Source: a virus. Taken from it: a DNA stretch of 56,986 nt. Shown piece after piece: positions 1,331 to 46,793 of the stretch. The notes beneath the pieces were generated by a model. It searched no databases. It saw only the letters and a program-made list of their open reading frames with translations, and was not told the DNA's origin. Positions within the stretch are counted from its first letter, which is position 1. Each line of letters starts with the position of its first letter. The position numbers were made by a program, and so were the translations under genes. The stretch covers positions 1 to 56,986 of the IMG/VR virus record IMGVR_UViG_3300031857_020009; one strand, given 5' to 3'.

Positions 1331-3244
1331 TTATTCCTTTACTAATTTTTCTACTATCGGAGCATTTGTTTCAGTAGACAAACTTAATACGTACATACCC
1401 GGTGCTAAACGTCCTAAGTTCTTAACATATGTGTATTGTCCTGCAGGAAGCTGACCCGATAGTATTGTTACAACTTTTCTTCCTTGCAAATCATAAACTG
1501 CTAATTGAGCATCTGCGGATGCATTTTCTACATTAAATGTAATAGTCACATCATCTAATACTGGATTTGGATAAATTTCAACAGTATTTAAATCAATAAC
1601 CCCGCCTACTGAACTTTTAACTACTTGCAATATACCGTTTGTCGGAGTAATCTCAAGGTCTTTAGACACAGTATTTCCAGCATATTTCTCAGTTGTCCAA
1701 ATTGGAGATTCTGTCCATGCAGATTGAGGTTGTAATGCTAAGAATTGTAAACGAACTACTTCCGTATTGTCTTGTAATGGATTAGTATTGGTAGCATCAT
1801 ATCCACCCCAATGAATTTCTCCATTATTAGCATTAACATATGTCAACCATTTCATTGCAGGTGATGATGAATAGATATTTTTAAATTCTAATACTGTTTC
1901 ATCATAATCAAAACCAAATTGCAATGAATTAAGTTGTACACCATTTGTGTAAACTGTTACTGGAATATCAACCAAGTTACCTGCTTGCACTGATAAGTAA
2001 GGAACATTTACTTCAATTGATGTGGTTGGAAAATCATATTCAACTGTATTGTCAATGACATTGTAAATCTGAGAAGGAACACCTGGTGTTGGATCAATTA
2101 AAATATCAATCGGCGTCATACGTGCCATATGATAACCTGTACCATTTGCATCACCTGGTACTGCAACATAGAATGTTACCGTCGACGGTTGTCCTGCAAT
2201 AATCTCATAATTGAAGTTAGTTACACCTGGGATAGTTGAGGTATGGTTTGTCGATGAACCATCAATTGTAGCAAATTCAGTTGCTGTAAAGAATTTAACA
2301 TCTTTAGTGTTATTTGGCCATTGAGTAAAGTTACCTGCTACGCGACTAAATACACCGTATGCATCTGTAATTGTTACGTTGTTAGATCCATTTATATCCG
2401 CAGCATAATAATCAAAGCCAGACATTGTACCATTACCTAATACCCATTGATTAATTAATTGTGCATCTGTTGCAGATATAATATTACCTACACCCATTGT
2501 GTCACCTTTAATAGCTAAACGTACATCCCAATAGCTTGTATCAATGTTAACTGTAAATGTAAAGTTACCTGAGTTATCAGTTGTATAAGCAGAATGTTGA
2601 GTCCAAGTTGAACCACCTGCAGGACGACGCTCTAATGCAAATGGTAAGTCTTTAGCACCCGTACCAGTTACGTTAGTAAATGTTCCTGCAAATGTAAATG
2701 TAGGTAAAATGAATTCACCGCCATAGTTATGCAAATTCAATGTAGTATCAATACCAGCACCGGTTGCAGCATATTGTTGAAAGGTTTGCGTACCTGTCCA
2801 TGTCAATGGCGTAATTGATGCAATGTTGTTGAATACTGCTGGCGCTGCGTGAGTAAAGGTAATTGCAAAGCGCTCGCCGTTAGCTAAAGTATATGTAGCT
2901 GATGCACCCGTATATACTAAAGTAATTGTAATAAAACCATTAGCAGTATTAGTTACATATTGTAAATCTAAGTTCGTAGTTGAACCAATTAATGCAACCG
3001 TTGCATTTGTAAATGCTACATTGTCATAAAATACCCGGAACTGTGTTGCAGTGTATTTTGTTAATGTAGTGTTCTGCAATGTAATGTTTGCAGTTGTTGT
3101 TCCTTGCGATGTTGGTGCCACTTGGTATTCTGCATGGATCAAACCATAAATACCATTACCTGGTGCTGAAGGTGCTTGGGCTAATGTAACTGATGTTGTT
3201 AGTAAAACTGCAAGGAGCGTTAATAAACTTGTTAGTTTTTTCAT
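1331..3244 (-). CDS. Type IX secretion substrate with cohesin/dockerin-like domains
   Basis: A 637-aa exported protein. Residues 1-22 are a clear signal peptide (MKKLTSLLTLLAVLL...). The region after it, to about 170, and another at about 405-510 look like cohesin-type beta sandwiches. Residues about 250-310 (TDAQLINQWVLGNG...ADINGSNNVTITDA) resemble a dockerin-type calcium repeat. The last 85-90 residues match the type A sorting domain of the Bacteroidota type IX secretion system: EIYPNP, a VYDLQGRKV strand, then PAGQYTY and LAPGMYVLSL before a Lys-rich end. The start has a strong Shine-Dalgarno (AAGGAG, 7 bases upstream). The domain implies that a Bacteroidota host secretes it during infection, or that the domain was borrowed for a virion protein. 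The target is unknown. Confidence 0.8.
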   Translation of the reverse strand: MKKLTSLLTLLAVLLTTSVTLAQAPSAPGNGIYGLIHAEYQVAPTSQGTTTANITLQNTTLTKYTATQFRVFYDNVAFTNATVALIGSTTNLDLQYVTNTANGFITITLVYTGASATYTLANGERFAITFTHAAPAVFNNIASITPLTWTGTQTFQQYAATGAGIDTTLNLHNYGGEFILPTFTFAGTFTNVTGTGAKDLPFALERRPAGGSTWTQHSAYTTDNSGNFTFTVNIDTSYWDVRLAIKGDTMGVGNIISATDAQLINQWVLGNGTMSGFDYYAADINGSNNVTITDAYGVFSRVAGNFTQWPNNTKDVKFFTATEFATIDGSSTNHTSTIPGVTNFNYEIIAGQPSTVTFYVAVPGDANGTGYHMARMTPIDILIDPTPGVPSQIYNVIDNTVEYDFPTTSIEVNVPYLSVQAGNLVDIPVTVYTNGVQLNSLQFGFDYDETVLEFKNIYSSSPAMKWLTYVNANNGEIHWGGYDATNTNPLQDNTEVVRLQFLALQPQSAWTESPIWTTEKYAGNTVSKDLEITPTNGILQVVKSSVGGVIDLNTVEIYPNPVLDDVTITFNVENASADAQLAVYDLQGRKVVTILSGQLPAGQYTYVKNLGRLAPGMYVLSLSTETNAPIVEKLVKE

Positions 3245-6032: not shown

Positions 6033-7690
<1,658 letters not shown>

Positions 7691-21484: not shown

Positions 21485-22258
21485 TTAGTTTACAATATAC
21501 TTATGATTAGTTTCAATATCATGTTTAATATACGAACCCCATTTATATTTAGCATATTCATGTCCATCTGATTCAGATTGTTTTCTTTGTTGTTCTTTTT
21601 CTGCAGTCATTGTAGTTAATGATACAAAATGATAAAAATGACAATTCCATGTTCTGATCATCTTAAGTCCGGAAAGAGAACATTTTAAAAAGAAATCCCA
21701 ATCGGCAACCATTCCTAATTCATAATTTTCATCCCATCCACCTAATCGTATATAATCTAATTTAGACATAAAAATAGGCAATGTAGAACCAGTTTCTTCT
21801 TTTTTATCTCCAGATGCATAATGATAATCAAATAACCAAAATGCTTCTAAATCAAATGTTTTTGGATCTCGACCCAAATCTTCTATTATAAATTGTTTAA
21901 ACATACTAGGATATGGTTCAATCTGATTAGGTGTTATAACAGTGCCATCTTCCCAATCATCCTCTAAAGTAGTATCCCAAAATCTAGGAAATACATTGTC
22001 ATCATTTACTATTAATATTTTGTCATGTTTAGCATTGTATACGCCTAGGTTAGTTCCCCGACAAAGACCTTGATTAATTTCTAAATTCAATATATCAATT
22101 GAATCTTTCCATCGGTCTAAGACCTCTTTATTTAAGTCATAGAAGCCATCTACAACAACTATTATTTGATTTTTATTTTGTTGTCCAGTAATAGCTGATT
22201 TTAAACATAAATCTAAAGCATCTGGGCTTTTATATGTTGGTATAATTACTGATATCAT
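21485..22258 (-). CDS. Family 2 glycosyltransferase
   Basis: About 257 aa, GT-A fold. MISVIIPTYKSPDALDLCL opens the nucleotide-sugar domain; the metal-binding acidic cluster is VNDDNVFP, and a later acidic region (NYELGMVADWDFFLKCSL) matches the GT2 acceptor-side pattern. It transfers a sugar to a glycan, lipid or protein of unknown identity. The ATG at 22258 forms an ATGA overlap with the upstream gene. It is the last gene of the glycan cluster. Confidence 0.8.
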   Translation of the reverse strand: MISVIIPTYKSPDALDLCLKSAITGQQNKNQIIVVVDGFYDLNKEVLDRWKDSIDILNLEINQGLCRGTNLGVYNAKHDKILIVNDDNVFPRFWDTTLEDDWEDGTVITPNQIEPYPSMFKQFIIEDLGRDPKTFDLEAFWLFDYHYASGDKKEETGSTLPIFMSKLDYIRLGGWDENYELGMVADWDFFLKCSLSGLKMIRTWNCHFYHFVSLTTMTAEKEQQRKQSESDGHEYAKYKWGSYIKHDIETNHKYIVN

Positions 22259-22950
22259 ATTGAGGCCCAATTAGTTAATGGAGATAACCATGCAGTTTCT
22301 CCATGGGTTGAATAACCAGGTAATGTCGTTATCAATAATTCATTTAAATTTCTCAATTCTAAAAACATATGAAAATCATTAGGATGAGTTGATGATGTAT
22401 GTTTTCTTAATATCATTTCTGTTCGTTTTAGTGTAGATACTTTAGATGCAAATGTCATTGTAGTACTATTTGTAATCTTCCAATGACATGAATTAGTTAA
22501 ATAAACGCGCGTATCTTCAGCTCCACCCTCACAATATGGATTGCCTCCATTTTGCGGACTTAAATATTTATCTGGATGGTCATATAATGCAACGAACGAA
22601 GCTCCTAATGTAAAACCTTCTTGCAATACATCTGGAGAATAACGTTTATGTAGATAATCATTTTCAACGAAATAAACAATTTCATCATCATTCCATTGCA
22701 ATGCTTTATCTAAAGCTAAATTAAAAGTGCCGGCACCATGGCCTATAGAAACTTTTTCGATATTATCTGGATTAATATAATTTATAATCATATTAATAGT
22801 ATCATCACTACAATTATCTGCAATAACATATATGTCATTAATATGTTCGTAAAATATATTACAAAAATTTCGCAAACATAATTCATTATTAATATATTCT
22901 GGCTTTTCTTTTTTATAACCAGCATCTGATATTCTATAGATTATTTTCAT
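22255..22950 (-). CDS. GT2-like glycosyltransferase
   Basis: 231 aa. Starts MKIIYRISDAGYKKEKPEYI, then DIYVIADNCSDDTINMI, the typical GT-A donor loop, and YFVENDYLHK as the metal-site equivalent. The C-terminal part (SCHWKITNSTTMTFASKV, STHPNDFHMFLEL) is less standard. Sugar and acceptor are unknown. It overlaps its upstream neighbour by four bases. Confidence 0.7.
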   Translation of the reverse strand: MKIIYRISDAGYKKEKPEYINNELCLRNFCNIFYEHINDIYVIADNCSDDTINMIINYINPDNIEKVSIGHGAGTFNLALDKALQWNDDEIVYFVENDYLHKRYSPDVLQEGFTLGASFVALYDHPDKYLSPQNGGNPYCEGGAEDTRVYLTNSCHWKITNSTTMTFASKVSTLKRTEMILRKHTSSTHPNDFHMFLELRNLNELLITTLPGYSTHGETAWLSPLTNWASI

Positions 22951-23963
22951 AACATTGTTTTTATATATTTAACATAATTTTGAGATGATTGAAATACATC
23001 GCCTCCAGATATAGTTGTTTGTAAGTATTCATTAAATTTACCATGATCTAGTTGATATTGAATAGAATCAAATATTTGTTGTTTATTTAAATCAACTAAG
23101 CCTGGATAATGCTCAAATTTGCCAATTTGACCGCAACCTTTAATCAACACTGTAGGAATTCCTAATTGAATTGGTTTAAATGCTAATGTAGATGGGGCTG
23201 ATATAACTACTGCGGATTTTGCTATTAAATCATCAATATTTTCTGAATTTGTTATGACTTCACATTCTAATAAATTGTTTACATATGAAATGTCATTAAC
23301 ATAATCCGGTTTATCGAGTCTTGTTTTTATTTTTACTTTTATTGGCAAGTTAAACTGTTTAGATAATTCTAATATTCCAGATTCTTGAACAAATCTTTGA
23401 TCAAAATTAATAGGAAATATAGATCCGCGGTTTCCTAGGAAATTAGTTATAACTAATATATGTTGGGGTTGAACTACTACATTAACTAATGTGTCATTTG
23501 CAGGAATGCCACCATTATGAAATTCCATTTTAACAGTATAACTAATACCTGATGCGTCTTTTGTAATATTTTCATTTCCGTGGACATTGCCAATTACTTT
23601 GATATTTCTATGCTTACATTCATTATAAAAATGTGGAATATTAAATTCTTGCATTTCTCGATTATCATCATAAATTACAAATTTGTATGAATTTATGTCA
23701 ATAAAATTTAATAATGATTCGTGAATACTGTCTCCGTGGAATTTAATTCCAGGCCCTTGTATTACATTATTAAAATACTGATTGTATTTATTAATTGCAA
23801 CAAGCCGCTCATCAATATCACCAACCCATGGGGTATTTAAACTAAATAACCCAACGCAAAACAAATCAATTTCATATTCAATTGATAACAATGGTATTAT
23901 AGGCCAAAGCTTTTCAGCAACTCTATGATTTGTAAATAATAATAATATTTTACTTTTTGACAT
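22947..23963 (-). CDS. GT-B-fold glycosyltransferase-like protein
   Basis: 338 aa. Two Rossmann-like halves are suggested: the N-terminal KILLLFTNHRVAEKLWPIIP and the C-terminal SAVVISAPSTLAFKPIQLGIPTVLI, typical of donor-binding C domains and also of UDP-GlcNAc 2-epimerases. I favour a transferase because the epimerase catalytic motifs are not apparent. It could add the activated nonulosonate-like sugar made by its neighbours. ATGA-type overlap downstream. Confidence 0.6.
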   Translation of the reverse strand: MSKSKILLLFTNHRVAEKLWPIIPLLSIEYEIDLFCVGLFSLNTPWVGDIDERLVAINKYNQYFNNVIQGPGIKFHGDSIHESLLNFIDINSYKFVIYDDNREMQEFNIPHFYNECKHRNIKVIGNVHGNENITKDASGISYTVKMEFHNGGIPANDTLVNVVVQPQHILVITNFLGNRGSIFPINFDQRFVQESGILELSKQFNLPIKVKIKTRLDKPDYVNDISYVNNLLECEVITNSENIDDLIAKSAVVISAPSTLAFKPIQLGIPTVLIKGCGQIGKFEHYPGLVDLNKQQIFDSIQYQLDHGKFNEYLQTTISGGDVFQSSQNYVKYIKTML

Positions 23964-24663
23964 ATCGATTAGATCTAGGTAAACATTTAAATTGATCTGT
24001 TAATGGCAAATATGTATTTCTATAGTTATGCGAAACAAATGTTTGTTTTAATCCATTAACTTTAACGCCTGGATGTTTCCATAATGAATACATCATTGAA
24101 ATTTGATCTTCTGTATTCCATTTTGCTGTCTCATCAAACCATGTTTTATTAAAATTTCGTATTATTTCGTTATTTCTTCGATATAATATACCATTTTCAT
24201 ATAAGCTATTGTTTTCTGGATATCCTTGTTGTTGATAATCTAAACCTTGATTAATAATCATCTCCTTAGGATCGCGCGGTGGGTTTCTATTGATAGTTTC
24301 ATTTACTTCTTGATATAAGCACGTTCGATCACAATGAAGATGAACTGCTAAATCAAAATCATTCAAATGTAATGAAAATAAATCATGCGGGTCATATGTA
24401 AAATAAATTTCATTATCCATCCATAACCATGCATCATATTCGGGTAATAATTCTTCAGGGGATGTTTTGCATTTTCTAGCAGTCCATCGCCCAGATCTCC
24501 ATACATCCATTTTACGTACATCCCAAAAATTGGATTCTAAATAATCACTATTAGTAAACGCAATATAATCTATTCCGTCTTTGTCATGTACATATGGTAT
24601 AAGATCTCCATATAAATAATCCGGGTGATCTGTAAATAATGCTGTATAAACTGCTAATTTCAT
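23950..24663 (-). CDS. DUF616-like glycosyltransferase
   Basis: About 237 aa. MKLAVYTALFTDHPDYLYGD, DYIAFTNSD, RSGRWTARKCKTSPEELLPEYD and WLWMDNEIYF follow the order of the DUF616 family (TOD1/MUCI70-type putative glycosyltransferases), and CDRTCLYQEVNE matches the family's second block. The ATG at 24663 forms ATGA with the upstream stop. The acceptor is unknown. The family is uncommon in phages as far as I know. Confidence 0.7.
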   Translation of the reverse strand: MKLAVYTALFTDHPDYLYGDLIPYVHDKDGIDYIAFTNSDYLESNFWDVRKMDVWRSGRWTARKCKTSPEELLPEYDAWLWMDNEIYFTYDPHDLFSLHLNDFDLAVHLHCDRTCLYQEVNETINRNPPRDPKEMIINQGLDYQQQGYPENNSLYENGILYRRNNEIIRNFNKTWFDETAKWNTEDQISMMYSLWKHPGVKVNGLKQTFVSHNYRNTYLPLTDQFKCLPRSNRYVKK

Positions 24664-25301
24664 GCTAAGCCTTTCCAAGTTGCACCATTACTAGTCCAAT
24701 AATGATTAATTTCTATTTTTGGTGTATAAAAAAATGAATATCCAAGTTCAACTTGATCAATAGCCCAATATCTATCTTCTTTGCCTACTAGTTTTTCATC
24801 AAATGGATACTTTGATAAATGTTCTTTAGTATAAAAACAAAATGCATTATGTAAAAAGTATCTGTCTTCAATAGTTGAAAATAAATTAGTAACTTCTTTA
24901 GTTCCAAAATGACTCCAGATATATCTAGGTGTTATTTTTTTACCTCTATATATAGGAGTTTGTTTTCCAAATACTGCTACATGATTTTTTAAACAAGACT
25001 GAACATATTCATAATCCATTTTATGAATCTGAGAATGTGCAGATAAAATTAAAATAATATCATTACTACATCGTTTTACCGCTTCATTAATAGATCTACC
25101 AGGACTATAATTATCAATATTGAATATTTGTATATTTGTTTTAAGCGAAAATAAATTTACAATTTCTATAGAATCATCATTAGAATTATTATCCATAATG
25201 ATAATTTCCGGATCTTTAAAATGATCGATAACTGATTGAATTGCAAAACCTATATATTCAGATTCATTGCGATTTCTAATTATAACTGAAATTTTATCCA
25301 T
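24660..25301 (-). CDS. Family 2 glycosyltransferase
   Basis: About 213 aa. MDKISVIIRNRNESEYIGFA is a textbook GT2 opening, followed by EIIIMDNNSNDDSIEIV; the acidic metal motif is replaced by LSAHSQI, as in several GT2 subgroups. A PFDEKLVGKEDRYWAIDQVELG block near the end matches the acceptor-side ED motif. It overlaps neuB by eight bases. Sugar unknown. Confidence 0.78.
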   Translation of the reverse strand: MDKISVIIRNRNESEYIGFAIQSVIDHFKDPEIIIMDNNSNDDSIEIVNLFSLKTNIQIFNIDNYSPGRSINEAVKRCSNDIILILSAHSQIHKMDYEYVQSCLKNHVAVFGKQTPIYRGKKITPRYIWSHFGTKEVTNLFSTIEDRYFLHNAFCFYTKEHLSKYPFDEKLVGKEDRYWAIDQVELGYSFFYTPKIEINHYWTSNGATWKGLA

Positions 25302-26091
25302 TAAATCTACCTGCATAATTCGTTCTAGAATCAAATTCTAATTCATTATAACTAGTTCCATGATCTATCATCATATCATGAATATAATTAATATATTTAC
25401 GTAATCCAAGTAATTCATTTGGAAGTATTGCAAACTTATTATCTCTACCTGGAAGATTATTATCGATTGTAAAATGTTTTTCGATAACAACTGCGCCTAA
25501 TCCTAATGCAATTTTAGCAGATTCAATTCCTTCAATATGATCGCTATATCCAATTAAATCATGAAGTTGTTTTAACGCAATCATTTTTGGAAGATTTGCG
25601 ATTTCATATTTTCCAGGATATACTGAAACGCAATGCATTAAATATAATGTTGCTTTATTAAAGAAACTTATACTATATTTAATTTCTTCTAATGTCGATG
25701 TACCCGTTGACATAAATACTGTTTCAAAATGATCGTTGCAATATTTAATTAATTCAATATTTCTAGATTCGAAACTAGGTATTTTAACTGAATTACATTT
25801 TAATTCCGCTAATAGTTTAGCATCTTCAATACTAAAAACTGATGATAAGAAGGAAATATTCATTTCTTTACAATATGAAATTAATTCTTCATGACGCTCT
25901 TTTGTTAATTCAGCTTGCTCATAAATCTCTCGACGGCCGTCAATATCCCAGTCACCTGTTTTTAATCTAGAAACAGACCAAGTTTGAAATTTAGCATAAT
26001 CAGCTCCGCTCTCTGCAGCAGCTTTAATCATTTCTTTTGCTAAATTCATATCACCACAATGATTCCAACCAATTTCTGCTATTATTCTCAT
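25294..26091 (-). CDS. neuB: NeuB-like nonulosonate synthase, no SAF domain
   Basis: 265 aa. The family joins phosphoenolpyruvate to a hexosamine-type sugar to make sialic, legionaminic or related nine-carbon acids. The barrel is complete: IAEIGWNHCGDMNLAKEMI, ADYAKFQTW, SVKIPSFESRN, MSTGTSTLEEI, GYSDHIEG and EKHFTIDNNLPGRDNKFA. The usual C-terminal SAF/antifreeze-like domain is missing; the protein ends 13 residues after NELEF. That domain contributes to the active site in dimeric NeuB, so the enzyme may be altered or paired with another protein. The cytidylyltransferase lies two genes upstream. Confidence 0.82.
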   Translation of the reverse strand: MRIIAEIGWNHCGDMNLAKEMIKAAAESGADYAKFQTWSVSRLKTGDWDIDGRREIYEQAELTKERHEELISYCKEMNISFLSSVFSIEDAKLLAELKCNSVKIPSFESRNIELIKYCNDHFETVFMSTGTSTLEEIKYSISFFNKATLYLMHCVSVYPGKYEIANLPKMIALKQLHDLIGYSDHIEGIESAKIALGLGAVVIEKHFTIDNNLPGRDNKFAILPNELLGLRKYINYIHDMMIDHGTSYNELEFDSRTNYAGRFNG

Positions 26092-26092
26092 A

Positions 26093-26680
26093 TTATTTTC
26101 TTTTTAATAGCCAAATAAAATAGGCATCGGTTTGGTTGCTAGTTGTTTCTAAAATTAAATCATATTTTTGTAAAAATTGATCATAATTGTGAAATAGTCT
26201 AGGATGTTCCGGTGTTTCGAATTCTTTTTTTAGTTCGCGTAACATAATGTATTTAGGATTCCAATTTTTTAAAATCATTTTGATAATATAATCAGCCTTT
26301 TCATATTGTAAATGCATAAAATGATCTGAAACTAAAAACAAATCTAAATCTTTAATAATATTATTATCGATAATATCTTGCGAGTCTCCTTCATAAAATG
26401 TAATAATATTCTTTATTGACTCAGACATATTATTCTTAGATGATTCCGCAAATAGATCACTACAATAAATGTTATTAGTTTTAAACTCTTCATTAATATA
26501 ATGCAAATTTCTAGCTGGACCTGATCCTAATTCGAAGATCTTTGATTCAGAATTTAAAACATTATGTTGTTTAAGTAGTTTAACTAATTCTTTTGAATTT
26601 TCATGTAATATTGAACTTGCGTTCATTCCTACTGCATTTTGATAATCGGATGGAAACCGTTCTTTTCCAAATTTTGCCAT
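26093..26680 (-). CDS. SAM-dependent methyltransferase
   Basis: 195 aa, class I fold. Motif I is IFELGSGPARNLHYI (about residues 48-62); an acidic residue follows at the next strand (YCSDLF), and LDLFLVSDHFMHL is the post-I/motif IV region. A sugar O- or C-methyltransferase fits the setting between neuB-like and neuA-like genes, for tailoring the nonulosonate or the glycan. The substrate is not proven; SAM binding is likely. Confidence 0.75.
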   Translation of the reverse strand: MAKFGKERFPSDYQNAVGMNASSILHENSKELVKLLKQHNVLNSESKIFELGSGPARNLHYINEEFKTNNIYCSDLFAESSKNNMSESIKNIITFYEGDSQDIIDNNIIKDLDLFLVSDHFMHLQYEKADYIIKMILKNWNPKYIMLRELKKEFETPEHPRLFHNYDQFLQKYDLILETTSNQTDAYFIWLLKRK

Positions 26681-26681
26681 A

Positions 26682-27245
26682 TTAACCTATTTTTTGTTCT
26701 ACTTGTTTTAAATCATCTAAATAATGAATATCAGTTGCAGCATCTTGTATACAACCAATTCTTTTACTAACCATTGAATTTTTTAAATACTCAAATTTAA
26801 AAATTCTAACAGACCCGCTTCGTTTATATGAAGGATTAATAGTAATTAAATCATCATAATTATTTGAAATCATATAATCAATACATTCGTCTAATGTATG
26901 AGATCTATCTGGATTATCTGGCTGTAATGCTACAACCAAATCATACTTTCCATCTTCAATTTTACTACAAAATTCAATATATACATCAGTTACTTCAGCA
27001 TCTTTTAAAAGATGTTCAGGTCTTGCAGTCCATAATACATCATTTTTCAAAGCAATATCCCATACATCTGGACTTTCTGATGAAACTACAATTGTAGGGT
27101 TATACTTACTTAATTTTGCATATTCAATTGAATATTCAACCATAGGTTTTCCATTTATTCGTTGAATATTTTTATTCTGAAGTCTTGTTGAATCTAATTT
27201 TGTTGGTATTATTACTAATACCTTTAAAGTTTGTTTACTGCCCAC
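26682..27245 (-). CDS. neuA: NeuA-like CMP-sugar cytidylyltransferase
   Basis: 187 aa. VLVIIPTKLDSTRLQNKNIQ is the signature of cytidylyltransferases that activate sialic acid or Kdo, with the expected Arg and Lys; GKPMVEYSIEYA and VVALQPDNPDRS follow. At 187 aa it is slightly shorter than typical NeuA (about 220 aa), ending soon after the dimer region. It would make the CMP-activated product of the NeuB-like enzyme. The only available start is GTG, overlapping the dehydrogenase stop by 22 bases. Confidence 0.8.
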   Translation of the reverse strand: MGSKQTLKVLVIIPTKLDSTRLQNKNIQRINGKPMVEYSIEYAKLSKYNPTIVVSSESPDVWDIALKNDVLWTARPEHLLKDAEVTDVYIEFCSKIEDGKYDLVVALQPDNPDRSHTLDECIDYMISNNYDDLITINPSYKRSGSVRIFKFEYLKNSMVSKRIGCIQDAATDIHYLDDLKQVEQKIG

Positions 27246-28168
27246 GTATATGCCTTTCTTTGTCCTTCGCGAGTCATTCCGCCAATATGTGGAGTAACTA
27301 TTATATTTTTTTTATTATTCATTGCTATGATTATCGGTGATTTAGTTAAATCATCAAATTCATTTTCTATAACATCAGTTCCATATCCGGATATTAAATT
27401 TTTATCTAGCGCATCGACAATATCATGTTCTTGTACAATTTCTCCGCGTGATGTATTTATAATATAAGGACTATTTTTACATAATCCAAGAAGTTTATGA
27501 TCTATCATATATTTAGTTTCATCAGTAACATGTACATGCAATGAAATTACATCAGATGTTTCAAACATATGTTCCAACGTTGTATAATGATTTAATAAAA
27601 ATGAATCTGAAAAATTTTGTTTTTCATATGGATCATAAACTTTTACGTTAGCTCCAAATGCATTACAATATTCGAACATCATTTTTCCTAAACGTCCATA
27701 TCCGATTATACCAATATTCAATCCTTTAATTTGCCTGCCTACGAAATTAGTATAGTCCCATTTATATTCAGAAACGTGTTGATTTGCAGTTGGAATATTT
27801 CTTAATAACGATAACATCAATCCGAATGCTAATTCAGATGTAGATGGCAATTGTTTTATTAATTCATAATCTTTAGTTAAAGAATATATCTTAATATTAT
27901 TAGAATTACAATATTCTTGATCGATATGATTCATTCCAGTTGAACATGTATTAATTAATGTTACATCAGTACCATTTAATAATTCATGATCAATTTTATA
28001 TGTCTGTTGATTTGGATTACAAATTATAGTATCAATTTTTTCTTTTAATAAAAGTTCTCGTACTTCAGCTTTAGATGCAGTTTCATTTAAAAATACATCT
28101 CCTTTTGTATGTAATATATCTAATATACCATTAATATGCTGGATCGGAGTAATAACCGCTATTTTCAT
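27224..28168 (-). CDS. D-2-hydroxyacid dehydrogenase
   Basis: 314 aa of the SerA/D-lactate dehydrogenase type. NAD binding is at GIIGYGRLGKMM, followed by YDPYEK; NTSRGEIVQEHDIVDAL carries the conserved Arg, and VTPHIGGMT the catalytic His. The C-terminal helix is short but the active site is complete. Such enzymes appear in polysaccharide clusters; here it could make a keto-acid or modify a sugar acid. ATG at 28168 is preferred over the GTG before it. It overlaps the SDR gene by 38 bases. Confidence 0.8.
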   Translation of the reverse strand: MKIAVITPIQHINGILDILHTKGDVFLNETASKAEVRELLLKEKIDTIICNPNQQTYKIDHELLNGTDVTLINTCSTGMNHIDQEYCNSNNIKIYSLTKDYELIKQLPSTSELAFGLMLSLLRNIPTANQHVSEYKWDYTNFVGRQIKGLNIGIIGYGRLGKMMFEYCNAFGANVKVYDPYEKQNFSDSFLLNHYTTLEHMFETSDVISLHVHVTDETKYMIDHKLLGLCKNSPYIINTSRGEIVQEHDIVDALDKNLISGYGTDVIENEFDDLTKSPIIIAMNNKKNIIVTPHIGGMTREGQRKAYTWAVNKL

Positions 28169-29111
28169 CACTATATACCTTGATTATTTCATCTATAACT
28201 TGATAAGTTGAATAATTTATATTAAAGTTAATTAAGTCTTTTGCTTTAGTCGTATTTGCAAATCGTTTCATGATTTCTTTATAATTTCCAAATACTTGTT
28301 CTCGATCATCAAAAATTAATTCAGATTTTGAATTGGTTTTAGATATAATATATTCAGCAACTTCTCGTACCGTAGTTTGTTCATCGGTACCTAAATTAAT
28401 AATTTGTCCATTAACTGAATCCATATGTTGTATTAATTTACTTAAACCATATGCAATATCTAATGCGTGACTAATTGATCTGGTTTGCATCCCATCTCCA
28501 TGAATATGAATTGATTCACCTTTCAAAGCTTTATCTACAAATAATGGTATATGGCCACCTGACCAACTTTTATTAGATCTCCAAGATGCACATCCAAATA
28601 CTCTAACTACACATCCTTTTAAATCTGATTGTTGAATTTCATTAAAAATAAATTGTTCGCCATACAATTTAGATAACGCATATGAATATCGTTCATTGGT
28701 AGGCGGACCTATAGTAATTGATTCAGATTCTAAAAATGTTGTAGAATTTCCATATACATCTGATGTTGACGTAAATATTAAAAATGAGCCATTTTTTACT
28801 GCGTCTGATACGACTGTTTCGATCATTTGATAATTTTCCTTTAAAACATCAACTGACTTTATAATACCATTTGCTGGCTTTTTCATTGATGCTAAATGAT
28901 AGATAGCATCAAACTCTTCTTTCCAAAGATTTAAAAATTGTACTTTTGTTTTTTTAAATTGGAAATTTTTATTTTGATGAGCATTTTTTAAATTTTCAAT
29001 ATTTCCATATGACATATCATCTACGCCTACTACGCTGTGTCCTTGTTCTAATAAAAAATCTACTAAATGACTTGCAATTAAACCTGCAGCCCCCGTTACT
29101 AATATTTTCAT
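28131..29111 (-). CDS. NAD-dependent sugar epimerase/dehydratase (extended SDR)
   Basis: 326 aa. The NAD motif GAAGLIAS (GxxGxxxS-like, residues 7-14), VDDMSYGNIENL, the catalytic TSTSDVYG and YSYALSKLYGEQ (Tyr-x3-Lys), and a sugar-binding R-S-I-S-H-A block are present. The second small residue in the NAD motif is Ala rather than Phe. It probably epimerises or dehydrates a nucleotide sugar that feeds the glycan. Overlaps both neighbours. Confidence 0.85.
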   Translation of the reverse strand: MKILVTGAAGLIASHLVDFLLEQGHSVVGVDDMSYGNIENLKNAHQNKNFQFKKTKVQFLNLWKEEFDAIYHLASMKKPANGIIKSVDVLKENYQMIETVVSDAVKNGSFLIFTSTSDVYGNSTTFLESESITIGPPTNERYSYALSKLYGEQFIFNEIQQSDLKGCVVRVFGCASWRSNKSWSGGHIPLFVDKALKGESIHIHGDGMQTRSISHALDIAYGLSKLIQHMDSVNGQIINLGTDEQTTVREVAEYIISKTNSKSELIFDDREQVFGNYKEIMKRFANTTKAKDLINFNINYSTYQVIDEIIKVYSDENSGYYSDPAY

Positions 29112-30064
29112 AATTCGTATTTTCTTAATGGTCCTGTTTGTATATCGTGTTTGTAATATTCTCCAATTAACGTATTATCGTAACTTTGTTTAATTGATTC
29201 AAAAGTATTTGTATTTTCATAATCCCAGCCCCATCTAGAACGCCATGCATTGAAATTTGAATATTTACCAAAATGATATTCATTTCCTGATTTAGCACCG
29301 GTGGCGGAATTAGCATTAATATTGTATTTTTCTTTTAAAAATTGATTATTTAAACAATATAAATTTGTTAATGTTAAACATGGAAAATTTAAATAATTAA
29401 ACTGCATTGCAATATCTGGTAACCATAAATGAAAATGATATTCATTTGTTGGTTTGATATGTTGATTCCATAGTGAAACATTTATACCAACTGCTGCCCA
29501 CATTGGAAATTCTGAAATAAATGGTTGATTCCAATTTCCAGAATTAATTAATGTATCTTGTTGTTTAGGACATAACCATCTTCCGGAATTTGATTGAATT
29601 GATAAATGTGCCATTCCAATCATCCCTAAGGGCGTTTCTCCATTATTAAACTTATCTAAACAATCATTAGTATAATCTCCATTATCTAAAACATTGAATC
29701 CGACAATACCAAATTCATTCAATTTTTCTTCTGAGATATATCTAGATAATGTTTTAAAGAAATTTTCAGAAATTGGATATATGTCATGTTGAAAACAAAC
29801 TACCCATTTACATTTTGGTCGATTTTCATTAATAAAATCAATTAATGTTTGCGTTGCCATTTGAACGCCTCGATCTTTATTCTCTAAAAAAACTATGTTA
29901 TTTTCGGAACAATATTGTTTTCCTTTTCGAATTTCATCTTCAGAAGAATTATCATCTACATTAATTAATTCAAATCCTTCGGTGTTGATGTTTTTAAATA
30001 CTTCGCCTTTGAGCATATCATAATTATTGCGCGAAGATATGTATATAATTAAATTATCATTCAT
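29108..30064 (-). CDS. Glycosyltransferase-like protein (GT2-like N terminus)
   Basis: 318 aa. MNDNLIIYISSRNNYDMLKG, then ELINVDDNSSEDEIRKGK and WVVCFQHDIYPI follow a GT-A pattern with the acidic HDI in the metal position. The C-terminal half (EFPMWAAVGINVSLWNQHI, HFHLWLPDIAMQFNY) is aromatic-rich, as in glycan binding. I am less sure of this than of the other GT2 genes. It overlaps upstream and downstream genes by a few bases. Confidence 0.62.
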   Translation of the reverse strand: MNDNLIIYISSRNNYDMLKGEVFKNINTEGFELINVDDNSSEDEIRKGKQYCSENNIVFLENKDRGVQMATQTLIDFINENRPKCKWVVCFQHDIYPISENFFKTLSRYISEEKLNEFGIVGFNVLDNGDYTNDCLDKFNNGETPLGMIGMAHLSIQSNSGRWLCPKQQDTLINSGNWNQPFISEFPMWAAVGINVSLWNQHIKPTNEYHFHLWLPDIAMQFNYLNFPCLTLTNLYCLNNQFLKEKYNINANSATGAKSGNEYHFGKYSNFNAWRSRWGWDYENTNTFESIKQSYDNTLIGEYYKHDIQTGPLRKYEL

Positions 30065-30917
30065 ATGATCCTATATAGTTTAAAATATAATCTTTAATAT
30101 TAAATTTACATTCCCAATTCAATACAGTTTTAGCTAAAGTAGAATCGCAAAGTGTATTAATTGCTTCACCTGGTTTATCATCATCATATACAATATAATC
30201 ATATTCAAACATATTTGCAATTTCTTGTATAGAATAATTTTTACCAGTACCTAATTCAAAAATATGACCCCATGCATTTTTTTTAAAAATCAATAATAAT
30301 GCAAAAACAATGTCATTAACGTGTGTAAAATCTCTACGTTTGGTGCCATCGCCATATATTACTATAGGATGTTTAGTTTCAATAGCATGTTCCCATTTTC
30401 CAATAACAGTACAATATCCACCCTCTTTAAGATGATGTGGTCCGTATACATTATAAAATCTAGCTACTGATGCATTTAAATTATAATGTTGTTGAAATAA
30501 ATCAATTATTTCTTCCCCAATATCTTTGCTAAACGTATATGGGTTCTTAAATTTACCAGAATGATGTGAGCTAGACCCAGCATAAACTAATGGCGTATTT
30601 GTATCTACACAAAATTTCGCAATTTTCATAGTAGATACTGCATTGTTTTCAAAATATTCTACTGGTAAATTAAATGAGGGCTGAATTCTAGCAATTGCAG
30701 CTAAATGAAATATTATATCAAATGATCCATATTCAGAAAAATCAGATATAGTTAACAAATCTTGTTTAATATAAGTAGCTCCCTCAATATGATTACTTTC
30801 AAATCCTGTAAAATAATTATCAATTGATATTACATCAAAATTATTTTGAAGTAGTAATTTAATTAAATTGGTTCCGATAAACCCGGCACCGCCAGTTACT
30901 AAAGCTCGTTTTTTCAT
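30057..30917 (-). CDS. UDP-glucose-4-epimerase-like extended SDR
   Basis: 286 aa. GGAGFIGTN (residues 9-17) is a perfect NAD-binding motif; HLAAIARIQPS, SSSHHSG and NPYTFSKDIGEE (Tyr-x3-Lys) complete the active site. ARFYNVYGPHH and YGDGTKRRDFTHVNDI are the conserved family segments for nucleotide-sugar binding. Interconversion of UDP-hexoses or a related dehydratase step is likely; the exact substrate cannot be told. ATGA-like overlaps on both sides. Confidence 0.85.
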   Translation of the reverse strand: MKKRALVTGGAGFIGTNLIKLLLQNNFDVISIDNYFTGFESNHIEGATYIKQDLLTISDFSEYGSFDIIFHLAAIARIQPSFNLPVEYFENNAVSTMKIAKFCVDTNTPLVYAGSSSHHSGKFKNPYTFSKDIGEEIIDLFQQHYNLNASVARFYNVYGPHHLKEGGYCTVIGKWEHAIETKHPIVIYGDGTKRRDFTHVNDIVFALLLIFKKNAWGHIFELGTGKNYSIQEIANMFEYDYIVYDDDKPGEAINTLCDSTLAKTVLNWECKFNIKDYILNYIGSYE

Positions 30918-31543
30918 AAAGTATCGTAATATTTGTTTTGTTTTTCTTGTCGATCAATTGTCTTAGGATGATATAAGGCCCATTCTTCTAATAATGGCAA
31001 CATACCATGGTGCTTAAATCCATTTAATACTTCATGGACTCGATTAACCCATTTAATTTCTGGTTTATTTTTATAAATTCGCATCTGCCAATCTGCCCAA
31101 TTTACCCAACCCTTTTCATTCACATTCCATCCCCAACGACGAATATGTTCTTCAGTTAATCCTTCAACCGTATTTACCCGCGGTACTCGAATCATATCTG
31201 CTAATGGATTTTCTTCTAATAATAATGGAAGATTTTTCATTAAATTTTCATGAGGAATTTCATCTGCATCTATTTGAAAAATCCACGTACCTGAGCATTT
31301 GGATGTTAATAAATTTTTCCAATCTGCGAAATGTCCTCTAAATGAATCTTCAACTAAGTTAATTTGATCATTAGAACTCAATTTATGTAAATAACCTAAT
31401 AATTCAGAAGTAGGTTCATTTTTTGATAAATCTACTAATACTACAATTTCATCTTGTAATCTTTTATGTTCTAACAAGAAAGAAATAAGTCGTTGTATTT
31501 CAATAAATTCATTACATACTGTTATAGCGTAACTTATTTTCAT
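30914..31543 (-). CDS. Family 2 glycosyltransferase
   Basis: 209 aa. MKISYAITVCNEFIEIQRLI is a GT2 start; GTWIFQIDADEIPHENLM gives the DxD-type metal site. The C-terminal region, WQMRIYKNKPEIKWVNRVHEVL, is the standard feature of the WaaE/KdtX-like lipopolysaccharide-core group. It likely adds a sugar to a surface-type glycan. It starts the shorter transferases after the two long GT4-type genes. Confidence 0.8.
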   Translation of the reverse strand: MKISYAITVCNEFIEIQRLISFLLEHKRLQDEIVVLVDLSKNEPTSELLGYLHKLSSNDQINLVEDSFRGHFADWKNLLTSKCSGTWIFQIDADEIPHENLMKNLPLLLEENPLADMIRVPRVNTVEGLTEEHIRRWGWNVNEKGWVNWADWQMRIYKNKPEIKWVNRVHEVLNGFKHHGMLPLLEEWALYHPKTIDRQEKQNKYYDTL

Positions 31544-31544
31544 G

Positions 31545-32804
31545 TTATACCTTTTGTAACTTAGGTAACTGTAATTTATTTAAATTTGGAAGTTTTATTT
31601 CAACTGGTTTAGGAATTGATTCTAATAATAAATCTAAATCATTAATAAAATTAGAAAAAATCTTTGTAACTGCAGCATCATTAAAATTAGATTTTGCAAA
31701 AAATCTTTGTCGTTTTGCTAATTCTAACCAAGTTTTATAATTTGAGTTAACTTCTCTGAGACAATGAACTGCGTGATTATAATCTGCAGTAAACCATTTT
31801 GCATTTTTAATTAAAAACTCATTCTGCGCAGATGGATGAATTTCAGTTAATTTTCCATTAACACTGCAAATAAAATCTTTTTTAAGAAAATCAGATTGAC
31901 CGGAATAATGTGGTGCGATAATTGGCTTTGCAGTTGTTGAAAATTCTAACAACGGACGGCCGAAGCCTTCTGCTTTTGTTAATGAATACATTGCTTTAAT
32001 CTTTGGGTGCATATACAATGAATTCATTTGTTTATCAGTTAAATCGCCATGTAATATGTATACATTAGGTAATCGATCTGTTTTCTTATATAAATTCTTA
32101 ATTTGTTGTAGTTTTCTTTCAATTTCTAATCGATCGGTAATTGAATATGTAGCACCGCTTGTTTTCAAGATTAATGCTGGTTGATTTTTTTTATTCTTGA
32201 ATGCTTCAAAAAATGAATAAACTGCGCCACTGATATTTTTTCTATCTTCTCCCAATTGTCCTTGCAGCCAATGCCCAACTGTCAAATATGCAAATGTCTC
32301 AGGAATATCATCTAATTCTGATATCATAGATTCATATGTTCCATCATATATAGTTTCATTAAAATATTCTGGAATTACATGAATTTTAGTTGTTAATGGT
32401 TTATTATGATCGAGTGCAGTCTTTTCAAAAACTTGTTTTGTAAAGTTAGTAGGAACGATAATCATATTCATTGAATTTAATCTATCAATCCACTCCGGTG
32501 GGCATATATCACCCTCTGTACCCGCAGTAACACCTATATTAATTTTTCCAACTGGCTGAAATTCATTAGGAACGGTAATTTGAACCCAGATATCTGGTTG
32601 ATCAGATAATGGTAATGGAACTATTCTAGATTTAATTTCATTACTTAATGGAAACGTAAATGGAGTGTGACCCCACGGCAATGAAACTAATTTAATATTC
32701 CATTCTAAATTTTTATGTGCAATTAATTGTGAAATTACTTCGCGGGCATGATGTCCATAACCCGACTGCGTTGCAACTGGCGATGCTATAACTACATTTG
32801 TCAT
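31545..32804 (-). CDS. GT4-type glycosyltransferase
   Basis: 419 aa, GT-B fold. VVIASPVATQSGYGHHAREV is the acceptor-side Gly-rich loop, and KAMYSLTKAEGFGRPLLEFSTTAKPIIAP the donor-side motif with the conserved Glu pair (ExGFGxxxxE). The last 15 residues (LPNLNKLQLPKLQKV) form a small repeat that also appears at the N terminus of the neighbouring long transferase. Donor and acceptor are unknown. Stop and start overlap with that neighbour. Confidence 0.82.
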   Translation of the reverse strand: MTNVVIASPVATQSGYGHHAREVISQLIAHKNLEWNIKLVSLPWGHTPFTFPLSNEIKSRIVPLPLSDQPDIWVQITVPNEFQPVGKINIGVTAGTEGDICPPEWIDRLNSMNMIIVPTNFTKQVFEKTALDHNKPLTTKIHVIPEYFNETIYDGTYESMISELDDIPETFAYLTVGHWLQGQLGEDRKNISGAVYSFFEAFKNKKNQPALILKTSGATYSITDRLEIERKLQQIKNLYKKTDRLPNVYILHGDLTDKQMNSLYMHPKIKAMYSLTKAEGFGRPLLEFSTTAKPIIAPHYSGQSDFLKKDFICSVNGKLTEIHPSAQNEFLIKNAKWFTADYNHAVHCLREVNSNYKTWLELAKRQRFFAKSNFNDAAVTKIFSNFINDLDLLLESIPKPVEIKLPNLNKLQLPKLQKV

Positions 32805-34291
32805 TATTGTACTATTCCTGTATTTTTATATTTAATATCTTTAAATTCTGTGAATGTATATGATGGACGAGTTTCTTTATTAACCTCAAATAAATAATCA
32901 ATCATATGAATCATCTTTTCACCCATTTGTTCTGCAGTTAAACCATTTTGCATTGCCCATTCTCGGCCAATCATGCCATGCATGAATCTAGTAGCAAATG
33001 GCAAATCATACCAATAACGAATTGCATCAGCTACATCCTCATATCGTACTCGGTCATCGAATATATATGGCGTTTGTGGAGAACCTTGAAGTGATCTGTT
33101 ACTTGGAAATACTGGTTTAGCCCAGTGACCATGTTTTGTAAATCGACCTGTGTGGTTAGTTGCAAATTCACCATCGAAACGAATCCATTCTCCATTTTCA
33201 TCTTCAAAACCACATTGATCTTGTAATCCGCCAGTTACATTATTAATAATCGGCGTACAAGCTAAAATTGCTTCTGTTGAACTTAAACCCCACCCTTCAT
33301 TACTAGCAATATTGACAACAACATCTGCTACATTGTACAATGCATTAAGTTCTTCTGTTAATAGTTTTTGTTCTGAAAAGATTATTTTACAATCAGGTGC
33401 TACTGCATTTCTCACTGCAATTAAATCGGTGCCATTTTCATCAACTGCTTGAGTATGCATTACTAGTCCAACTTTATTCTTTTGGTCTTCTGGTAATGAA
33501 TCAACAAACGTTTTAAATGCTAGGATAACATCCCCTGGTTGTTTTCTTCGAATATTTCTATTATTCCAAAATACCATGAAATCAATATCATTTTCTTTTT
33601 TGAATCGATCGTGCATTTTTTTATACATTTCATCATCCAATTTAAGTGGTTTGAATTTATTATGATTCAATCCATGAGGCACATATCCTGTAACTATATC
33701 ATTCCATTTGACATCTGCAGGAACGGCACCTTCATCATAATCTACAACACCAAATCCGTTCTGTTTAAGCACTTCTCTATGGATATTATCAGATTGCTTA
33801 CTAATTCCCATAATTAAATCGCAACTACCATAAAATGGTGCATTCCACATTGGATAAGGTAAATCATCCCAAATAGAGTAATAAACTAATGGAATATTAT
33901 AAGTAGTTTTAATCTCATGTTCTAATGCGTACAACCAAGTCCAATAACGAGGATCAGTAAAATGAAAAATTGCATCTGGTTGTTCTTGGTTAAGCAACGC
34001 AAATAAAATATTGCGATCTCCATAACCTGACCACGGAATCAATTTAACATTGGCATCTGCTACTCCAGTTTCTTGAGCAATTATTTGAGATAAGTCAATA
34101 CCTTTACCATGTTCTGGATGTTGTAATGCAGCACCCAATTGTACCCAATCGTAATGGTGAACGGTATTGTAAATGATTTCTTTGCTAATAGTGCCTATAC
34201 CAGATGGTAAACGAAAATCATCTGCTAATAACAGAATTTTTTTCTTTTTAGGCTTGTTTGGATCAATTTTTTGTAACTTTGGTAATTCCAT
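32804..34291 (-). CDS. GT4-type glycosyltransferase, first gene of glycan cluster
   Basis: 495 aa. After MELPKLQKIDPNKPKKKK comes LLADDFRLPSGIGTISKEI (acceptor loop), and later VVNIASNEGWGLSSTEAILACTPIINN (donor motif with the conserved Glu residues). The protein is long for the family, with an insert near residues 380-420 (FATNHTGRFTKHGHWAKPVF). An upstream ATATTTATA motif and an AAAAGGA Shine-Dalgarno fit its place as leader of the 13-kb transcription unit. Confidence 0.82.
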   Translation of the reverse strand: MELPKLQKIDPNKPKKKKILLLADDFRLPSGIGTISKEIIYNTVHHYDWVQLGAALQHPEHGKGIDLSQIIAQETGVADANVKLIPWSGYGDRNILFALLNQEQPDAIFHFTDPRYWTWLYALEHEIKTTYNIPLVYYSIWDDLPYPMWNAPFYGSCDLIMGISKQSDNIHREVLKQNGFGVVDYDEGAVPADVKWNDIVTGYVPHGLNHNKFKPLKLDDEMYKKMHDRFKKENDIDFMVFWNNRNIRRKQPGDVILAFKTFVDSLPEDQKNKVGLVMHTQAVDENGTDLIAVRNAVAPDCKIIFSEQKLLTEELNALYNVADVVVNIASNEGWGLSSTEAILACTPIINNVTGGLQDQCGFEDENGEWIRFDGEFATNHTGRFTKHGHWAKPVFPSNRSLQGSPQTPYIFDDRVRYEDVADAIRYWYDLPFATRFMHGMIGREWAMQNGLTAEQMGEKMIHMIDYLFEVNKETRPSYTFTEFKDIKYKNTGIVQ

Positions 34292-46291: not shown

Positions 46292-46497
46292 GTTTCGTAT
46301 ATACCGAATAAATTAATTGAAATAATAATAGCACTCAATGCTAAATGACTGTAATTGTCAATAAAACAATCATATACAATCCAACCGATGTCGCCTAATA
46401 TCCAAGCGAACATTGCTGGTCTGCGAATACATTTAGCATTGAGTACATATCCTAATAATACCAATGCAGTGCTAATCCAACCTAATGCGTCGATCAT
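46261..46497 (-). CDS. Small membrane protein (YgjV-like)
   Basis: 78 aa with about three hydrophobic helices (WISTALVLLGYVLNA, MFAWILGDIGWIVYDCFI, LALSAIIISINLFGIYETW), somewhat like YgjV and the semiSWEET/PnuC group of small membrane proteins. No transport role is proven. It joins GroES by TAATG and overlaps Hpt, so it is part of a metabolic unit. Confidence 0.6.
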   Translation of the reverse strand: MIDALGWISTALVLLGYVLNAKCIRRPAMFAWILGDIGWIVYDCFIDNYSHLALSAIIISINLFGIYETWKKSSQKNK

Positions 46498-46793
46498 TAT
46501 TTTGAATTTACTAATCCAATTTCGGATTCGCGAATCAACATGTAATCTGTATCTTCTAAAATGATACTTTTATTTTCACCTAAGTTAGATTTATACACAT
46601 AAACCTCATCATCAACTTTTACAGTCATCGGAATACGATCACCGGTTTGTGTAAATAAACCAGCACCTGTTGCTACAACTACTCCTTTTGTGAAATTCAT
46701 ATCTCGATCTACTAAGATAATTCCGCCTTTTGTCTTTTCTGCTACTTTTTCTACTTTGATCAAAACTTGATCACCAATTGGGTTCCAATTCAT
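46497..46793 (-). CDS. groES: GroES-like co-chaperonin
   Basis: 98 aa. GDQVLIKVEKVAEKTKGGIIL is the Cpn10 N-terminal core with the mobile-loop region following (VDRDMNFTKGVVVATGAG), and VKVDDEVYVYKSNLGE and ILEDTDYMLIRESEIG complete the fold. The partner of the GroEL at 6.0-7.6 kb is likely; T4 uses gp31 for the same purpose. No promoter of its own is visible. Confidence 0.88.
   Translation of the reverse strand: MNWNPIGDQVLIKVEKVAEKTKGGIILVDRDMNFTKGVVVATGAGLFTQTGDRIPMTVKVDDEVYVYKSNLGENKSIILEDTDYMLIRESEIGLVNSK

Follow-up and report, generated by a model that had tools for sequence, protein, structure and literature searches.

An exchangeable cassette with a short NeuB-family synthase inside a fixed glycosyltransferase scaffold of T4-like phages

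Introduction

Hypervariable glycan islands are known in T4-like phages (PMC3037559, PMC7824862, PMC7029224). Those of cyanophages and pelagimyophages (P-SSM2, S-SSM7 and the PMP hypervariable region) resemble the locus described here in being polymorphic clusters of glycan genes, carried by T4-like phages that infect aquatic bacteria. Here we analysed the 56,986-bp IMG/VR record IMGVR_UViG_3300031857_020009 (the whole of which is called the window), in which a 15-gene glycan block differs from those islands in having a fixed five-gene scaffold and a precisely bounded cassette with a NeuB-family synthase, a cytidylyltransferase and a D-2-hydroxyacid dehydrogenase (2-HADH). The sequences are metagenomic contigs throughout and may be incomplete. 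Three published accounts of the cyanophage and pelagimyophage islands, searched for the terms sialic and NeuB, mention no such genes; a literature search on phage NeuB modules or nonulosonate genes found nothing relevant, subscription papers and preprints lying outside that search. The anatomy of the cassette and the clade in which a short NeuB is joined by a dehydrogenase appear to be new, glycan islands themselves being already known. The 'LPS' (lipopolysaccharide) clusters of T4-like aquatic phages had an untested purpose, and the division into scaffold and cassette makes the glycan carrier a testable question.

The synthase of the block, g38, belongs to the same TIM-barrel family as the NeuB/SpsE/PseI nonulosonate synthases (PF03102) and shares their catalytic residues; in contrast to them it lacks the SAF domain and Arg314, falls in a distinct clade and is partnered with 2-HADH. 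Its best match in the PDB, the solved structure 6ncs, is a 290-aa N-acetylneuraminic acid synthetase that is likewise short; the similarity is moderate (121 bits over residues 3-238), and 6ncs stands outside the 108-sequence tree described below. A precedent for attaching nonulosonate-type sugars to proteins in the cytoplasm is FlmG-type glycosylation of Caulobacter flagellin with pseudaminic acid, which proceeds without lipid-linked export (PMC7591256); that system differs in acting on a bacterial flagellin and in requiring a SAF-containing NeuB with an essential SAF arginine (PMC7591256). Virion glycosylation in mycobacteriophages is cited in PMC12619734.

Results

A fixed scaffold encloses an exchangeable cassette

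Fifteen minus-strand open reading frames (ORFs), overlapping or abutting, span 21485-34291; they are flanked at one end by a lysis-type GH19 gene and at the other by genes of nuclease and replication type. An earlier note, made from the sequence alone, had described this one-directional block and its position between lysis and replication genes, and all of its ORFs were present as listed; Pfam matches bore out its NeuB-like and NeuA-like enzymes, hydroxyacid dehydrogenase and two short-chain dehydrogenase/reductase (SDR) proteins. The methyltransferase that it named matches S-adenosylmethionine (SAM) methyltransferase profiles, weakly and below the cut-off; of its about nine glycosyltransferases, four pass the Pfam cut-off, g46 and g47 fall just below that of GT4 and g35 is assigned to GT-B by its model, while g34 and g43 are weakly supported. 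Enzyme functions, here and throughout, are those predicted from sequence.

Left scaffold (g47, g46, g45), 30914-34291, minus strand: assigned by Pfam/PHROG; kept in relatives whose contigs reach and in Mel-JY01
g47, 32804-34291, minus strand: GT4-like glycosyltransferase; just below the Pfam GT4 cut-off, strong PHROG glycosyltransferase match
g46, 31545-32804, minus strand: GT4-like glycosyltransferase; just below the Pfam GT4 cut-off
g45, 30914-31543, minus strand: GT2 glycosyltransferase; passes the Pfam cut-off
Exchangeable cassette (ten genes, g44 to g35), 22947-30917, minus strand: delimited by DNA borders, synonymous divergence (dS), GC content and codon usage
g44, 30057-30917, minus strand: NAD-dependent sugar epimerase/dehydratase (SDR); PF01370, 4.1e-41
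g43, 29108-30064, minus strand: putative GT-A glycosyltransferase; weak TIGR01556 match (1.3e-3), conserved in the family
g42, 28131-29111, minus strand: NAD-dependent sugar epimerase/dehydratase (SDR); PF01370, 1.8e-37
g41, 27224-28171, minus strand: 2-HADH; PF02826, 3.8e-47; conserved R242, E271 and H295
g40, 26682-27245, minus strand: shortened CMP-sugar (NeuA/KdsB-like) cytidylyltransferase, 187 aa; PF02348, 1.1e-16
g39, 26093-26680, minus strand: SAM methyltransferase, optional module member; Methyltransf_12 0.0018 and BioC-like 3.7e-5, both below cut-off
g38, 25294-26091, minus strand: SAF-less NeuB-family synthase, 265 aa; PF03102, 4.5e-60
g37, 24660-25334, minus strand: GT2 glycosyltransferase; PF00535, 4.7e-16; directly downstream of the short NeuB in most phage loci
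g36, 23950-24678, minus strand: TOD1/MUCI70-type glycosyltransferase; PF04765, 2.9e-7; phrog_26101 glycosyltransferase
g35, 22947-23963, minus strand: GT-B fold protein; AlphaFold pLDDT 92.4, Foldseek matches to GT-B proteins
Right scaffold (g34 and g33), 21485-22950, minus strand: both found in Mel-JY01
g34, 22255-22950, minus strand: putative GT-A; weak glycosyltransferase match
g33, 21485-22270, minus strand: GT2; PF00535, 1.2e-12

Relatives gathered through the neighbouring nuclease gene g50 retain the gene order g50-g48-g47-g46-g45 wherever their contigs reach. In two relatives whose g50 is 98% identical to that of the window (L183 and L185), the DNA match is unbroken to 30935 and 30921 and then gives way to complete divergence, which places the left border right at the end of g45; on the right, similarity restarts at 22970 and 22961 in L246 and L252, at the g35/g34 junction. 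Comparison with L003 gave dS values of 0.09-0.50 for the cassette genes against 0.77-1.54 for the scaffold genes and g50, with the same pattern for L005; the transfer of the cassette between phages is therefore younger than the divergence of its flanks. Phages exchange the ten genes in the middle as a single cassette whose borders are sharp and recurrent. The isolate Microcystis phage Mel-JY01 carries g47 (split), g46, g45, g34, g33 and a chitinase in order, with other genes between them and no NeuB. Because the scaffold is common to Mel-JY01, we rejected one recent acquisition of the whole 15-gene block: the separate acquisition suggested in the earlier note holds for the middle ten genes, by borders, dS, GC content and codons, but not for the outer five, which are the family's own scaffold. 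The g47 homologue of Mel-JY01 (L182:33445-34879) consists of two ORFs, through either a sequencing error or a real break.

The base composition of the block agrees with these borders. GC content drops to 27-30% over 22-32 kb, with means of 28.0% for the cassette genes g35-g44, 30.8% for the five scaffold genes and 34.8% for the other genes of at least 400 bp (range 30-41%), and 20,000 shuffles of the gene order yielded no 10-gene run as AT-rich as the cassette. The codon-usage distance of the cassette was 0.219 against a maximum of 0.150 among other 10-gene blocks, and that of the outer five genes was 0.161, inside the range of ordinary 5-gene blocks (maximum 0.196). The AT-richness relative to the flanks that had been noticed by eye was thus confirmed by GC content, shuffle test and codon profile. 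All 15 reading frames are intact, and the ratio of non-synonymous to synonymous divergence (dN/dS) of the cassette genes, measured against L003 and L005, was 0.04-0.19; the proteins have therefore been maintained by purifying selection.

The content of the island was surveyed in the 29 relatives whose contigs extend 3 kb or more beyond the scaffold, a comparison that the earlier note had proposed. The short-NeuB/2-HADH module was present in five (two being copies of the known loci L002 and L003), one further contig (L220) carries the start of the same cassette, three hold a different NeuB, and 20 had neither NeuB nor 2-HADH within contig reach. Further scaffold-bearing contigs (L169-L171 and L177-L179) hold long NeuBs, some with NeuA. 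Island content varies among close relatives at one and the same locus, which is that of a phage glycan hypervariable island.

The short synthase defines a clade shared by phages and bacteria

The g38 protein retains the barrel residues equivalent to E25, K53, Q55, K129, E134 and Y186 of Neisseria meningitidis NeuB, together with those equivalent to S213, H215, E234, H236 and D247, and stops just after the barrel, where the SAF domain would start; the essential Arg314 is therefore gone. N. meningitidis NeuB depends on this SAF-domain arginine, its R314A variant being inactive (PMC6795526). No separate SAF protein was found among the 15 proteins of the block, and Asn184 of the canonical enzyme is replaced by Ser. 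The short NeuBs have new invariant positions of their own (W48, D49, D51, G52, R53 and R54) and a conserved C-terminal tail in which E252 is invariant and R256 and R262 are nearly so.

Relatives for the NeuB searches were chosen by conserved peptide patterns. In a tree of 108 sequences the short NeuBs formed a clade (support 100/100) of 39 phage and eight bacterial sequences, the latter from SAR11, SAR86, an alphaproteobacterium and Desulfobacterales; 32 of the phage sequences, including that of the window, form one subclade (100/99). With 39 distinct phage members in the short-NeuB clade, a nonulosonate-type block is not the rarity among phages that it had been taken for. A second set of short NeuBs, from six phage loci (L167, L169, L170, L177, L178 and L179), was placed elsewhere in the tree; their loci encode a longer NeuB as well and lack 2-HADH, and the two NeuBs are possibly an unequal enzyme pair.

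A dehydrogenase accompanies the short synthase

Of the 39 phage sequences in the clade, 38 have a 2-HADH gene no more than 6 kb away, and the 39th (L153) has one elsewhere in its locus. By comparison, none of 22 long viral NeuBs had a 2-HADH nearby and only one of 72 long bacterial NeuBs did, its locus containing a short NeuB as well; strong matches alone lay near 34 of 44 short and 0 of 22 long viral NeuBs. The SAR86 and Desulfobacterales loci bring together NeuB, GT2, cytidylyltransferase and 2-HADH. A Pelagibacter locus has in this slot, between GT2 and cytidylyltransferase genes beside a short NeuB, a gene of the unrelated hydroxyacid dehydrogenase family Ldh_2 (L038:9475-10524); such substitution by another family suggests that the pathway as such includes a 2-keto/2-hydroxy-acid step. 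We know of no nonulosonate route that includes a hydroxyacid dehydrogenase. A divergent 2-HADH occurs together with an enolase-superfamily sugar-acid dehydratase in five loci, four of phages and one bacterial; this variant module (L111:6060-8795, L118, L126 and the bacterial L027) combines the dehydratase and the divergent 2-HADH with a full-length cytidylyltransferase and a short NeuB.

The cytidylyltransferase g40, about equally similar to KdsB, PseF and NeuA, lacks an internal region of about 45 residues relative to L023; the enzyme is shortened in the group of the window and full-length in other clade members. Precursor enzymes of the NeuC/LegG, LegB/C/H or PseB/C/H/G type were not found in the 15-gene block, nor were Epimerase_2 and DegT proteins found in the 160-kb sister contig L009, within the possible incompleteness of such contigs. 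An epimerase was present in 7 of the first 22 viral loci, and the two tested were WecB-type, not NeuC. The earlier view of the block as an almost complete route to an activated nine-carbon sugar acid was not supported: only the synthase- and cytidylyltransferase-like steps are present, and the missing SAF domain and Arg314, the loss of about 45 residues from the cytidylyltransferase and the WecB type of the relatives' epimerase also speak against it.

The best Foldseek matches of the g35 model were UDP-GlcNAc 2-epimerases (TM about 0.6, about 10% identity). The protein was rejected as the absent NeuC-type epimerase, since its profile, when compared with that of WecB from the relatives, reached a probability of 3.9 and most catalytic epimerase residues are not conserved in an alignment read by eye; it was retained as a GT-B protein and is perhaps, by its model, a candidate transferase of the acidic sugar. 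The AlphaFold model of g34 has low confidence (pLDDT 55), and g44 reached no NCBIfam equivalog cut-off.

Proposed pathway, acceptor and alternatives

Built on the observed gene content, cassette borders, clade, linkage and purifying selection, the reading to which we incline, by a modest degree, is that a fixed scaffold carries a swappable cassette whose products make, activate and attach an acidic sugar. The five fixed glycosyltransferases (g47-g45 and g34-g33) would begin the glycan chain. The SAF-less g38 would condense phosphoenolpyruvate with an aldose to a 3-deoxy-2-ulosonic acid, g41 would carry out a 2-keto/2-hydroxy-acid redox step on the precursor or the product, and the short g40 would activate the acid with cytidine monophosphate (CMP). 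The two SDR enzymes (g44 and g42) and the methyltransferase g39 may tailor sugars, and g37, perhaps with g35, would add the acidic sugar to the chain that the scaffold enzymes had started; swapping of the outer sugars could change virion recognition. The product is most likely, as predicted from these enzymes, a CMP-activated 3-deoxy-2-ulosonic acid rather than an ordinary sialic acid. More tentatively, the SAF-less NeuB and its constant 2-HADH may represent an undescribed, phage-enriched sugar-acid pathway shared with SAR11, SAR86 and Desulfobacterales, yielding a new CMP-activated keto-sugar acid as an outer virion (or cell-surface) sugar that is changed by cassette swaps; if true, such an acidic sugar would be added chemistry, with genes in hand, spanning phages and some very abundant marine bacteria.

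Several points weigh against this reading. The chemistry of the enzymes and the order of the steps are deduced from the genes, and exchange by recombination in the conserved flanks, which is probably how the cassette is swapped, is a mechanism drawn from the borders only. Three Pelagibacter members of the clade (L025, L029 and L078) have no nearby 2-HADH, and the Fisher test on the strong 2-HADH matches (p = 3.5e-10), like the family counts, treats related sequences as independent. The missing export genes described below are weak evidence in metagenomic contigs, because a phage can use the export and ligation machinery of its host.

The likeliest acceptor would be a protein of the virion that receives its glycan in the cytoplasm, a reading that we regard as plausible while giving it somewhat less than an even chance. 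Searches for Wzx (PF01943), an initiating transferase (PF02397) and Wzy/ligase (PF04932) were negative in all ten phage records and positive in bacterial control genomes, and the block encodes no multi-pass membrane protein; the absence of export and initiation genes therefore favours a cytoplasmic acceptor. Transfer of the cassette as a whole, selection for the function of its proteins and the failure to find export or initiation machinery sharpen the question of the carrier.

Conversion of the host surface is the alternative that fares best, and we consider it a real if lesser possibility: the cassette would alter the lipopolysaccharide or capsule of the infected cell through the host's flippase and ligase and so block rival phages. 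This is the usual published reading of the cyanophage and pelagimyophage glycosyltransferase islands (PMC7824862; PMC7029224), the bacterial homologues sit among surface-glycan-type genes, and a constant scaffold with variable outer genes recalls O-antigen diversity; the missing flippase, initiating transferase, polymerase/ligase and multi-pass membrane protein speak against it, and nine glycosyltransferases are a large number if a host glycan is simply to be modified. Rather unlikely, in our judgement, is a canonical sialic, legionaminic or pseudaminic acid pathway that takes its precursor (for example, N-acetylmannosamine) from the host and whose short enzymes are merely streamlined. The catalytic residues of the TIM barrel are kept and the short homologue 6ncs is named a sialic acid synthetase, but the loss of the SAF domain and of Arg314 (the residue whose replacement inactivates the N. 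meningitidis enzyme; PMC6795526), the change of Asn184 to Ser, the linkage of 2-HADH to the short form of NeuB only and the absence of NeuC and DegT from the sister contig argue against it.

Decoration of hypermodified phage DNA against restriction is improbable: T4-like phages glucosylate their DNA and, as cited in PMC12619734, viral glycosyltransferases can build DNA glycans, but no dCMP hydroxymethylase was recognised in the window, itself part of a genome, and g06, as we read its sequence, has the Asn that is characteristic of thymidylate synthase. That the block is stuffer without function, serving to fill a headful-packaged genome as suggested for cyanophage lipopolysaccharide clusters (PMC3037559), is very improbable in view of 15 intact frames, dN/dS far below 1 and the kept catalytic residues.

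Phage affiliation, host and neighbouring genes

Nearly all genes of the window are read from the minus strand. The DNA polymerase is similar to those of T4-like phages, best that of Mel-JY01 (44%), and the gp32-, UvsX-, RNase H- and helicase-type genes follow the same order as in that isolate; the Gp23 major capsid protein is present in 10 of 13 related contigs, the window itself being without the capsid region. The replication set and the Gp23 of the relatives point to a T4-like phage. The T4 late-promoter motif TATAAATA was not enriched (14 observed against 13.4 expected).

The large phage protein g03 (1331-3244) contains a Por_Secre_tail domain (type IX secretion sorting), as do proteins in 6 of the 13 related contigs, and a phage lysozyme at 14308-15192 matches the same domain weakly. 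These domains indicate a Bacteroidota host, yet Mel-JY01 is listed for a cyanobacterium (Microcystis), and the host assignment is uncertain. The genes g01 and g02 (287-1329), neither of which has a Pfam match, resemble by eye the CsgG-type genes for curli secretion that pelagimyophages are reported to carry (PMC7029224). GroEL-like (6033-7643) and GroES-like (46497-46793) phage proteins were recognised by eye from their translations.

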